From the NCBI GenBank assembly GCA_902590115.1, contig CACIVM010000003.1, forward strand, positions 25,229 through 89,228: a stretch of DNA of 64,000 bases, given 5' to 3'. Every line of letters begins with the position of its first letter. Position 1 is the first letter of the stretch. Below are positions 16,419-19,895 of this stretch, in pieces. The notes below the pieces were generated by a model, which was given only the letters and a program-made list of their open reading frames with translations, was not told where the DNA came from and did no database searches. This DNA is from an uncultured Pelagibacteraceae bacterium (GTDB taxonomy: Bacteria; Pseudomonadota; Alphaproteobacteria; Pelagibacterales; Pelagibacteraceae). Both the position numbers and the translations under genes were made by a program.

Positions 16419-17840
16419 CTACGCAGAAGAATAAACTTTTTCCAAATCTTCAACGTACGCGTTAATATCGTCTAATATTTTCAGTTTTTCTGGCTGTTCT
16501 TCTCTCTCATATTTTGCTCTTAAAGTGTCTATCTCTGAATATGTTCTTGGAATTGTGTTCCATTTTTCGTTATTTGTACTCAAAAGTTTTTTAGCTACAT
16601 CTTTATGAATCAAATCGTAGTCAGACTTACTCAATATTTCAGGCCTTTCTATATACAAAAGCTTTTTTCCAAAATACTGAAGTCTTTTATCTTTAAATTT
16701 TGATAGAATTGAAAGTTTTTCACTCCAAGGGACAGAATGGAACTTTGACATTATGTTATTATCTTCTGCTGAAGTAAATTTCTCATAAATACTTTCTTCA
16801 GGATAAATATCTTCTTGAGATTTAAATTGATCTTTTTCTTGTACTTCTATTGCTTTAATCGTTGATACTCTTTCAGCAAATTCTTTATTTTCTTTTACAA
16901 GTTTGGCCCTTGCCTCTAATTTTTTTAATCCAATCATTTTATATTCGTCGAATTTTTCATAATAAGAGGGATTCATTAATATTGGATGTTTGTTATGCCT
17001 TACAGTTCTTATAAATTTAGGTTGTTTTTTCATTGCCGCCGTCAAGTCATCGAAGGATAAATCAAAATACTGCAAAGGATCATGTCTTAGATCGTAACAA
17101 AGCGGCCATGAAAATTTAGGATGTTCACACACAAACGTTTGTACGTATGGTCTGCTTTTTCCATAAAAATATTCATTAGTACAAAATAATTTTTCATTCT
17201 TGATTATTTCAAGAGCTATATTTTTGTCTAATGTCAAATGACTAGCTTTCCAAACATTTGGTGCCTTATTAGCTATAATTTTAGCAATACCTAGGGTGGC
17301 TACCACATCTCCTATTGCATTATGCGCGTCCCCATGCTCGATACCATTTAATGGAGCCATTTGATCAAGTTTGTAAACAGCATTTCCTTTTTCATTAATA
17401 GGATTTTTTAAAGTATCTGGATAATAAAAATTTGCAGCCCTAGCTAAACCTAGAACGTCGCCACGGTTGCTTCCATTTGTGCTTGTTATGTAAGGATATT
17501 CTAAAGTTTGGAAAAGTGTGGATCTGAGAAAATTTTCGTCAAATTCTATTGAATTAAAGCCAATATAAGTAGCCTTCCCCCATCTTTTTAAAGTCTCAAC
17601 AAATTGCCTCACCATTTCGTAATGTGAAAGATTAGACTGCTTAAGCATTACAGGTGAAGTTTTATTCACTATTAATGCTGAGGCTTCTGGAATAATGCCA
17701 GGGTTTAATCTACACCTGGCATCGAACCTATCTAGCTCATCTAGGTTATCATTGGTTAAAATTGCTCCGATTTGGATTATTTGACCCCAATAAATATTGG
17801 ATGAGCTAGTCTCAAAATCATAGAAAACATAGTTAGCCAT
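16419..17840 (-). CDS. sbcB: exodeoxyribonuclease I
   Basis: VFYDFETSSSNIYWGQIIQIGAILTNDNLDE DEDD exonuclease; GDAHNAIGDVVATLGIAKII; exonuclease I C-terminal domain. Confidence 0.9.
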   Translation of the reverse strand: MANYVFYDFETSSSNIYWGQIIQIGAILTNDNLDELDRFDARCRLNPGIIPEASALIVNKTSPVMLKQSNLSHYEMVRQFVETLKRWGKATYIGFNSIEFDENFLRSTLFQTLEYPYITSTNGSNRGDVLGLARAANFYYPDTLKNPINEKGNAVYKLDQMAPLNGIEHGDAHNAIGDVVATLGIAKIIANKAPNVWKASHLTLDKNIALEIIKNEKLFCTNEYFYGKSRPYVQTFVCEHPKFSWPLCYDLRHDPLQYFDLSFDDLTAAMKKQPKFIRTVRHNKHPILMNPSYYEKFDEYKMIGLKKLEARAKLVKENKEFAERVSTIKAIEVQEKDQFKSQEDIYPEESIYEKFTSAEDNNIMSKFHSVPWSEKLSILSKFKDKRLQYFGKKLLYIERPEILSKSDYDLIHKDVAKKLLSTNNEKWNTIPRTYSEIDTLRAKYEREEQPEKLKILDDINAYVEDLEKVYSSA

Positions 17841-18132
17841 TTAATCTAAGATTGCCTTTCTCTATATTCTCAATTTCTTTTTCTATACACTCAGTCTCTT
17901 TTAACGTTTTCCTGTATGTATAGGCGTCTTCAAAATCTATAATGAGATCCATTATTTTTGTAGGTAAATTAATGAACTTAATTATAAAGGTTATTATTAA
18001 GTGCTCTCTTTCAGCCTCTTTAGACGCTTTTTCAGTTATCGATTTATAAAGAAAATAATCCTCCATTGATTTAAGCCACTTTTTATTGTGTCTTAATTTA
18101 TTTCGAAGGTAATTTAGAACTTTATTATTCAT
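17833..18132 (-). CDS. hypothetical helical protein upstream of sbcB
   Basis: 99 aa ORF, overlaps sbcB start by 8 nt and next small gene by 8 nt; operon arrangement. Confidence 0.6.
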   Translation of the reverse strand: MNNKVLNYLRNKLRHNKKWLKSMEDYFLYKSITEKASKEAEREHLIITFIIKFINLPTKIMDLIIDFEDAYTYRKTLKETECIEKEIENIEKGNLRLNG

Positions 18133-18298
18133 TACCTTCTCCTTTTTGATTATCTCTTAGCTTCTCTTTTGTGATTGTCTCTACTGTTTTGCTGATAGAT
18201 AATTTCACATCTGGCACAATAGACTCAGATAGAATTATCAGTTTTTGATAAGTTTCATGTGATAATGAAACATTCCGATACTTAGTATAATCGGTCAT
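18125..18298 (-). CDS. ribbon-helix-helix-like small protein (57 aa), not in the supplied ORF track
   Basis: Hand translation: MTDYTKYRNVSLSHETYQKLIILSESIVPDVKLSISKTVETITKEKLRDNQKGEGNE*; beta strand + two helices pattern of CopG/RHH; AGAAAGGAAG SD. Confidence 0.6.
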   Translation of the reverse strand: MTDYTKYRNVSLSHETYQKLIILSESIVPDVKLSISKTVETITKEKLRDNQKGEGNE

Positions 18299-18374
18299 TT
18301 GCTTCCTTTCTCTACAGTCCTGATCGATAGATACACCTCTATTGTACAGAACAATTAGTTTTTGTTTACGTTAT

Positions 18375-18431
18375 GTAGGGAAAGTGAATTTACAGACAAG
18401 GAAGCCAAATATGTAAATACACTTTCCCTAC
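18375..18431. promoter_or_regulatory. large inverted repeat in the divergent intergenic region
   Basis: GTAGGGAAAGTGAATTTACA (18375-18394) versus TGTAAATACACTTTCCCTAC (18412-18431): 19/20 complementary, 17-nt spacer. Confidence 0.8.
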
Positions 18432-18464
18432 GGCTTTCAATTAATATAATAACTAACATTAAAA

Positions 18465-18569
18465 ATGTCAACTAAAAAAAAAATAGAAAAATTTAACTTA
18501 GAAGATTTTGTTGGAAAAAGTAGGATTGAAAAAAAAAATTATATTATTGCAGAAAGTAAAAAAACTTAG
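18465..18569 (+). CDS. possible small ORF (34 aa)
   Basis: Hand translation: MSTKKKIEKFNLEDFVGKSRIEKKNYIIAESKKT*; only evidence is ORF and position. Confidence 0.3.
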   Translation: MSTKKKIEKFNLEDFVGKSRIEKKNYIIAESKKT

Positions 18570-18589
18570 TGCCTTTATTTTTTTCATCG

Positions 18590-19621
18590 TTATTTTAAAA
18601 TTTTGATTTTTTCTTTATTGTCTAAAATATTATCTTTCACTTCCTCAGGATCCTTTATATTTCCTAGTGTATTCATAATTGATCTGGCGTCTCTACCAAA
18701 TCCGTCAGTAGCTGCCATTGCTTGTTCCAATTTTTTTCTTAAATCTTTTATTCCTTCAAAATGCTTTTCAAATCTAGAGCTTATATTTCTTAAATCACTA
18801 TAAATTTGAGTAGCATGTTGTTGTACCTTTAAAGTTTGAAAACCTAAGTGATAAGACTGTAATAATGCTGATAAAGAATTAGGCCCTGAAACTGTAACTT
18901 TATACTTTGTTCTTAATTCTTGTAACAATAATTCTTTTGATTTTGGATCTCTGTAACTTGAAATTTCTGAGAATAATCCTTCTGTTGGAACATAAATAAT
19001 CGCAAAATCTGTACTTTTTGGTGGAGCAATATATTTTGCATTTACCGATTTAGCTTTTAGTCTAAAAGCAGCCGCTAAATCTTTTCTCGCCTCTGCCTGA
19101 GCCTCTTTATCATTTATTTTATAGGCATCATCAATCGCCTTATATTTTTCAACTGGCCAATGGCTGTCAATTGGTAACAAAACTTCTTGAAGTTTAATAG
19201 CAAATTCAACTGTTTCAGATGTATCATCTTTCATTTTTACATTAGCGATAAATTGTGATGCTGGTAGTAAGTCTTTGAGAAGAGCGCCTAATCCAAATTC
19301 TGCTAGCGTTCCATAAGATTTAACGCCACTTAATATTCTACTAAAACTTTCTTGGCTTTTATTTAATTCACTTACTTGTTTGTTAAAAACCCCAACTTTC
19401 TCATCCACCCTAGTTAAAGCGCCAGTCATATCTTTTGCAATCTCTTTGCTCATGTTTCCAAACGATTGACTAAAAGAATTTTTAAGTGAGTTTACCTCGT
19501 CTTTTAAAATTTGTTCATTGTTTAAATTACTATCTGTTTTTTTTTTTCTGAGAATAATAAAGATTAATAACAAATTTAAGATTATTAAAGCAGAAATTGC
19601 TAAAAAAATTATCGAATCCAT
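18590..19621 (-). CDS. rmuC: DNA recombination protein RmuC
   Basis: N-terminal TM, coiled coil, FAIIYVPTEGLFSEIS...VSGPNSLSALLQSYHLGFQTL RmuC domain. Confidence 0.9.
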   Translation of the reverse strand: MDSIIFLAISALIILNLLLIFIILRKKKTDSNLNNEQILKDEVNSLKNSFSQSFGNMSKEIAKDMTGALTRVDEKVGVFNKQVSELNKSQESFSRILSGVKSYGTLAEFGLGALLKDLLPASQFIANVKMKDDTSETVEFAIKLQEVLLPIDSHWPVEKYKAIDDAYKINDKEAQAEARKDLAAAFRLKAKSVNAKYIAPPKSTDFAIIYVPTEGLFSEISSYRDPKSKELLLQELRTKYKVTVSGPNSLSALLQSYHLGFQTLKVQQHATQIYSDLRNISSRFEKHFEGIKDLRKKLEQAMAATDGFGRDARSIMNTLGNIKDPEEVKDNILDNKEKIKILK

Positions 19622-19665
19622 AATTTATAATATACCATTTAAAAATTTAAATGATTATAATATTT

Positions 19666-19702
19666 TTTTGTATAGGGGCAAATTTTTATTGCCCCTACAA
19701 AA
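19666..19702. terminator. strong 3' hairpin lacking a U-tract
   Basis: TTTTGTA(ta)GGGGCAA ... TTGCCCCTACAAAA, 14 bp with a 2-nt bulge; adjacent to the stop codon at 19704-19706 on the minus strand. Confidence 0.6.
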
Positions 19703-19703
19703 G

Positions 19704-19895
19704 TTAAATGTTCACCGGTGTTTTTTTTAAGTGCTTTAAAATTTTTCCAGAATTTACGCCCGCTTTAATTTTATAGCCGGACGTTCCATTAGCATTAACC
19801 TCAACTGCTTTTCTGGATTTTTGCATTTTGTTAATAAGTTCAGCCTGTGATTTGTTTAGGCTGAATTCTTTTAACATTTTAGAATGTCTATTCAT
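19704..19895 (-). CDS. hypothetical small basic protein (63 aa)
   Basis: Isolated ORF with a promoter-like AT-rich upstream region and a 3' hairpin. Confidence 0.55.
   Translation of the reverse strand: MNRHSKMLKEFSLNKSQAELINKMQKSRKAVEVNANGTSGYKIKAGVNSGKILKHLKKTPVNI

Follow-up and report, generated by a model that had tools for sequence, protein, structure and literature searches.

A 64,000-nt stretch of DNA from an uncultured SAR11 bacterium (the window) carries a long inverted repeat in front of a minus-strand operon that includes sbcB, the gene of exonuclease I. Does this repeat act in DNA, as the binding site of a regulator or as a recombining or mobile element, or does it act in RNA? 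SAR11 bacteria, which rank among the most abundant cells on Earth, possess few regulators and face heavy pressure from phages. We believe that the repeat is probably a 5'-terminal mRNA stem-loop, i.e., a translational-control leader, the loop of which can pair with the Shine-Dalgarno (SD) sequence and start codon of the first gene, encoding a ribbon-helix-helix-like (RHH) protein.

Results

The repeat and its carriers

The repeat spans positions 18375-18431; its two arms of 20 nt each form 19 of 20 pairs (95% complementary) around a 17-nt loop. These values, obtained by a recount of the arms, agree with those of the initial annotation, which had also called the repeat longer than other dyads here. 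It is indeed the sole hairpin of its class (17-nt arms with at most 2 mismatches, a loop of 5-40 nt) in the 64-kb window. Ten Markov-simulated windows contained 0-3 hairpins of this class each, and none with arms of at least 30% GC. The arm sequence (at most 3 mismatches) occurs at two sites in the window and at two in the whole 0.73-Mb assembly, which are the two arms themselves.

The window genome belongs to a SAR11 family, its named relatives being Pelagibacteraceae. Among 297 genomes of this family the arms are found in three, namely, the window genome (G000) and two of the 296 others (G269 and G058). The hairpin block is nearly invariant across these genomes, and the leader after it is diverged. 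The only arm difference, in G058, is compensated on the opposite arm; the U.U mismatch (18419/18387 in the window, 8 bp from the loop) is retained in all three. Comparison across relatives was the test by which the repeat was originally to be judged, and complementarity of the arms is retained in both G269 and G058.

A repeat of the REP/MITE type is ruled out by the copy number, one in the 0.73-Mb window assembly and one in each other carrier; the remnant of a small mobile repeat considered earlier is excluded for the same reason. No intrinsic terminator (a GC-rich stem, a short loop and a T run) was found in 18100-18700, and the loop is 17 nt long. An Rfam scan of the window region and of L052, a leader of group C described below, gave no match at the gathering score; only sub-threshold chance matches to eukaryotic and viral families appeared.

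Table 1. Position of the repeat and of the neighbouring features in the window
Feature	Position	Strand	Remark
rmuC	18590..19621	-	Left neighbour of the inserted stretch; Pfam RmuC 2.9e-44
749-bp stretch with promoter, hairpin leader, RHH gene and most of the 99-aa gene	17841..18589	-	Absent where rmuC directly precedes sbcB
Predicted sigma-70 promoter TTGACA-17-TATATT, reading towards the hairpin and RHH gene	18443..18471	-	11/12 consensus match
5' arm of the putative leader hairpin, GTAGGGAAAGTGTATTTACA in the transcript	18412..18431	-	Kept in G269 and G058
17-nt hairpin loop, UAUUUGGCUUCCUUGUC	18395..18411	-	Complementary to the RHH SD/start
3' arm of the putative leader hairpin	18375..18394	-	U.U mismatch 18419/18387
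RHH Shine-Dalgarno sequence and start codon, AAAGGAAGCAAATGA	18295..18309	-	Proposed loop target
57-aa ribbon-helix-helix-like protein	18125..18298	-	Relative of an abundant pelagiphage protein
99-aa protein	17833..18132	-	Overlaps the RHH frame by 8 nt
sbcB (exonuclease I)	16419..17840	-	Core gene; overlaps the 99-aa gene by 8 nt

An insert between rmuC and sbcB

The minus-strand order is rmuC, promoter, hairpin, RHH gene (57 aa), 99-aa gene, sbcB and a thioredoxin-like gene (Table 1). The genes named initially (a 57-aa minus-strand ORF followed by 99 aa and exonuclease I) are as described, and it was right to tie the repeat to the RHH-sbcB operon. The exonuclease I matches two Pfam families, Exonuc_X-T_C (1.9e-17) and RNase_T (1.1e-7). 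Members of a family of about 100 aa (window 17833-18132; L021, L022, L046, L052, L185 and others), which recurs in RHH-headed operons, are diverse and have conserved W, P and E; those scanned gave no Pfam or PHROG match.

Only a few bases separate the end of rmuC from the start of sbcB in each of the 28 close relatives examined. Here the two genes lie about 0.7 kb apart (749 bp in the window, 698 bp in G269), and in G058 the hairpin and RHH gene are present, the latter overlaps sbcB by 8 nt, and the 99-aa gene is missing. Taken together, these layouts suggest that the promoter, hairpin and RHH gene behave as an inserted cassette giving sbcB a new leader. sbcB itself is a core gene (136 of the 169 genomes of the genus and 14 of 14 high-quality ones), and the cassette is rare. 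Since the hairpin occurs in only 3 of these 169 genomes, the suggestion that it serves as a DNA substrate of exonuclease I finds no support.

Two further differences between the carriers were observed. The usual order rmuC-sbcB-trx is altered in G058 (L016:6220-7284), where rmuC is turned round and followed by a 121-aa gene encoded on the other strand. In G269, an RlmN-like gene lies between a 63-aa gene and rmuC; the window lacks it at that place (19621-19704), and no match to it turned up when the assembly of the window genome (64% complete) was searched.

Could the repeat be a DNA-level element, i.e., a recombination or insertion site, a cruciform or the remnant of a mobile repeat with which the cassette arrived? 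It does belong to the rmuC/sbcB insert, and relatives of the RHH gene are common in viral contigs. We nevertheless regard this as very improbable: there is one copy per genome, the repeat lies inside the insert, after the promoter and not at the insert ends, and the equivalent hairpins found elsewhere are leaders at other chromosomal sites. The single copy and internal position also largely refute the cruciform or replication/recombination site that had been proposed.

Predicted promoter and leader

The promoter in Table 1 is the best of four matches in 18100-18700. Its -10 box is separated from the hairpin by 11, 11 and 10 nt in G000, G269 and G058, respectively, and the sequence of this gap is diverged. 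Since the predicted promoter ends 11 nt before the repeat, the latter should most likely form the 5' end (the first 60 bases or so) of the RHH/99-aa/sbcB mRNA; it would extend from about +4 to +60, the predicted start being 3-4 nt before the 20-bp stem. The promoter scan revealed no good plus-strand (antisense) promoter entering the repeat.

The initial annotation placed the repeat in a divergent intergenic region, next to a 34-aa plus-strand ORF. This ORF exists as a frame (18465-18569); however, it begins within the -35 box of the minus-strand promoter, and the frame is broken in G269. The term "divergent intergenic region" is therefore probably wrong, and the region is probably a promoter plus leader. 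The 34-aa frame may be a gene remnant.

The RHH protein and the operator alternative

The RHH assignment made earlier is plausible by the predicted fold of the 57-aa protein (AF2 pLDDT 80), the best Foldseek matches being of the RHH type (TCP domain, MatP, Reg576); all of them are weak (E > 0.8), and the searches of Pfam (the profile search originally suggested), PHROGs and PDB sequences were empty. We consider the RHH fold moderately supported. All three genomes have the same putative RHH strand, YRNVSLS, and phage relatives carry the nearly identical YRNVSLT. The family is very common in viral contigs, with at least 458 relatives in IMG/VR and one named representative, gp21 of pelagiphage HTVC027P. 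RHH genes of the pelagiphage type also occur on short contigs (L036, L041) filed under Flavobacteriaceae and Actinomycetota MAGs, which are probably misbinned phage contigs.

Binding of the own promoter region is common among RHH repressors. The repeat could accordingly be a DNA operator, with the RHH protein (or another regulator) binding the arms as half-sites just past the promoter and repressing its own operon. The position of the repeat relative to the predicted start agrees with this, as does the identity of the strand in the three genomes. The lone arm change is symmetric, and covariation of the stem alone fits a symmetric DNA operator too. On the other hand, the 80 best of the at least 458 phage relatives were examined, and none has a comparable repeat or an arm-like site upstream. 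A phage origin of the hairpin was considered separately and rejected: the single IMG/VR match to the arm pattern lies in a tail-region gene, in which no second arm fits the pattern, and blastn of the hairpin against phages gave only weak AT-rich matches.

Predicted pairing of the loop with the RHH start

In each of the three genomes (group A) the best duplex of the loop within its own leader is with the RHH SD, at -14.1 (G000), -13.2 (G269) and -13.6 (G058) kcal/mol. Shuffled loops were equally good in 5%, 4.5% and 0.2% of trials, respectively; the energies for G000 and G269 are only marginally better than those of shuffled loops. Compared with 70 other start regions of the window, the start that belongs to the loop comes second, first and first, respectively. 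It should be kept in mind that any CUUCCU pairs with a Shine-Dalgarno sequence.

Complementarity to the downstream ribosome start is accompanied in group A by one clear change of partners. In G058 both the loop and the start region are changed, and the pairing energy of this start is -13.6 kcal/mol for its own loop, as opposed to -7.4 and -5.7 kcal/mol for the other two loops; the G058 loop pairs well also with the starts of the other two genomes. Taken alone (three genomes, two of them similar), this covariation is suggestive of a pairing in RNA. A conserved leader ORF is absent from the three group A genomes, where the putative loop target is the RHH gene itself.

We also considered the loop as a sensor of phage RHH mRNA and rejected this, as the group A loops have no clear preference for phage RHH starts; the G058 loop alone is slightly better on these than on other phage starts.

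Leaders of other SAR11 RHH operons

RHH relatives of other SAR11 genomes stand first in operons of variable content, which carry RmuC, ExoI-like and PD-(D/E)XK nucleases and the recurrent protein of about 100 aa. Many of their leaders contain a long hairpin, the sequence of which is unrelated between groups; several RHH loci examined have none. In addition to group A we distinguish groups B (L043-L049), C (L051-L061), D (L056), E (L030) and F (L185). The 15 leaders of these six sequence groups share a design: the stem is 17-24 bp long, and in every one a mismatch, mostly U.U, lies 7-10 bp from the loop, often with a second mismatch about 3 bp further on. Across the groups the loop varies from 9 to 32 nt and the arms share little sequence. 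Of 18 hairpins of the long class, 16 fall in RHH leaders, the background being 237 kb of RHH loci; since loci are related within groups, the independent number is that of the groups.

Group C leaders are long structured RNAs by prediction, beginning about 205-215 nt before the RHH start and reaching to it. Their parts are hairpin 1, another conserved domain (CCUAG..GGGAGAAC..GUUCUCUU..UUAGG), a short upstream ORF (uORF) that has an SD of its own, and a hairpin over the RHH SD. The stem, the SD-covering hairpin and the pairing between loop and uORF together have 10 pairs with two-sided changes, compared with 5.4 expected in shuffles (none of 500 was as good) and 0-3 in slid controls. One-sided G-U changes occur in these helices as well. 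The group C loop, CUGACUU, pairs just after the AUG of the uORF. In groups C, D and F alike, the loop finds its best target at the AUG of a short uORF lying 55-65 nt ahead of the RHH gene, and this ORF precedes a hairpin covering the RHH SD; the target sequences differ (AAGUCAG, UGCAAGUC and GAGAAAGC, respectively).

The loops of groups B and E have no significant target downstream or upstream, and they pair with the start no better than expected by chance. This would suit a simpler role, in which the 5'-end stem sets mRNA stability, as a decay shield or an RNase III cleavage site, and the complementarity of loop and SD is incidental. Processed stems often contain an internal mismatch, such a mismatch is present here, and the predicted start immediately precedes the stem. 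We consider this role quite improbable, because it leaves unexplained the change of the G058 loop that matches its start region, as well as three different loop-uORF pairs at the same position.

The other leaders bear on the operator too. Loop length and arm sequence vary between groups, yet the mismatch recurs at nearly the same distance from the loop; the one-sided G-U changes of group C and the covariation of loop and start fit RNA and not DNA. An operator thus fits the position and the symmetric arm change, and it explains less than an RNA leader does, given the covariation of loop and SD, the unrelated leader-specific hairpins, the G-U pairs in relatives and the fixed distance between promoter and hairpin. 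We hold it to be unlikely, although it is the strongest competitor of the leader.

Group B operons (L045:5260-7784, L047, L049) contain a 525-aa protein without a Pfam match beside an ARPP-1-domain protein and RmuC/ExoI; they are a possible defence island.

Discussion

With the repeat read as an RNA leader, it is tempting to propose the following mechanism. The inserted cassette would place sbcB behind the RHH gene. We infer that an RNA is made from the predicted promoter, and that the loop of its 20-bp hairpin pairs with the RHH SD/start about 65-80 nt downstream. The resulting pseudoknot (a helix of 8-12 bp formed by a 17-nt loop that the 20-bp stem closes) would keep translation of the RHH gene low. 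Because of the 8-nt overlaps by which the 99-aa and sbcB frames run into the gene before them, translation of both would be coupled to that of the RHH gene and should follow it. Release would come from a signal, perhaps cleavage of the stem, a binding protein or infection. Control would act through the uORF in groups C, D and F and directly on the RHH gene in the group of the window.

Leaders of like design and unrelated sequence before related SAR11 operons suggest an undescribed family of RNA switches. The available part of an RNA screen (PMC6429828) presents uORFs and protein-binding candidates in the SAR11 strain HIMB5, and this locus is not named there. If our reading is true, these unreported structured leaders would show how operons of phage-related RHH proteins and DNA nucleases can be kept off at translation; a core gene such as sbcB could come under new control through a small insertion. 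A bolder proposal would be an inducible RNA-gated defence module: a SAR11-wide family of switches, each with a private loop-start code, silencing phage-derived RHH proteins and nucleases (ExoI, RmuC, PD-(D/E)XK) until an infection-related opening of the hairpin. We think that this is improbable as a whole.

Comparison with known systems

The sbcB product matches the PADLOC model RTasSbcB at 6.5e-91, and RmuC of related islands matches RTasRmuC. These models describe reverse-transcriptase-associated proteins. Here sbcB belongs to the core of the genus, and the loci viewed revealed no recognisable reverse transcriptase; the match is thus a matter of SbcB homology alone, and on the same grounds we reject a retron/DRT-type ncRNA.

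Operons of the CopG/Arc type, headed by ribbon-helix-helix proteins, are autoregulated. The locus shares with them a small RHH-like protein encoded first, an effector gene next and a dyad between promoter and gene. Unlike theirs, the dyad here is one long near-perfect hairpin in the predicted transcribed leader; its sequence is not common to close RHH relatives, and its loop matches a ribosome start.

The SAM-V riboswitch, an H-type pseudoknot that sequesters the SD, likewise has a stem-loop near the 5' end and controls translation by a pseudoknot at the Shine-Dalgarno region (PMC6061858). Compared with SAM-V, the SAR11 leaders have a long stem of variable sequence and a loop of 9-32 nt, with no conserved ligand pocket and no Rfam match.

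The closest likeness in logic is to plasmid leaders. The replication genes of IncIalpha/IncB (repY-repZ) and IncFII R1 (CopT-tap-repA) plasmids have leaders with a 5' stem-loop. As in the SAR11 leaders, this stem-loop has internal mismatches or bulges, and its loop pairs near a downstream ribosome start; with groups C, D and F the plasmids further share a short leader ORF, the translation of which would open a hairpin covering the SD. Group A differs in having no conserved leader ORF. The IncIalpha/IncB pseudoknot activates, whereas the one proposed here would repress; the plasmid loops are targets of antisense RNAs, whereas no plus-strand antisense promoter is evident here; and the plasmid leaders control rep genes, whereas ours precedes a chromosomal RHH-nuclease operon. 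Lacking a leader ORF in the window and any recognisable antisense promoter, the SAR11 leader is not a member of the plasmid class; it resembles that class in logic.
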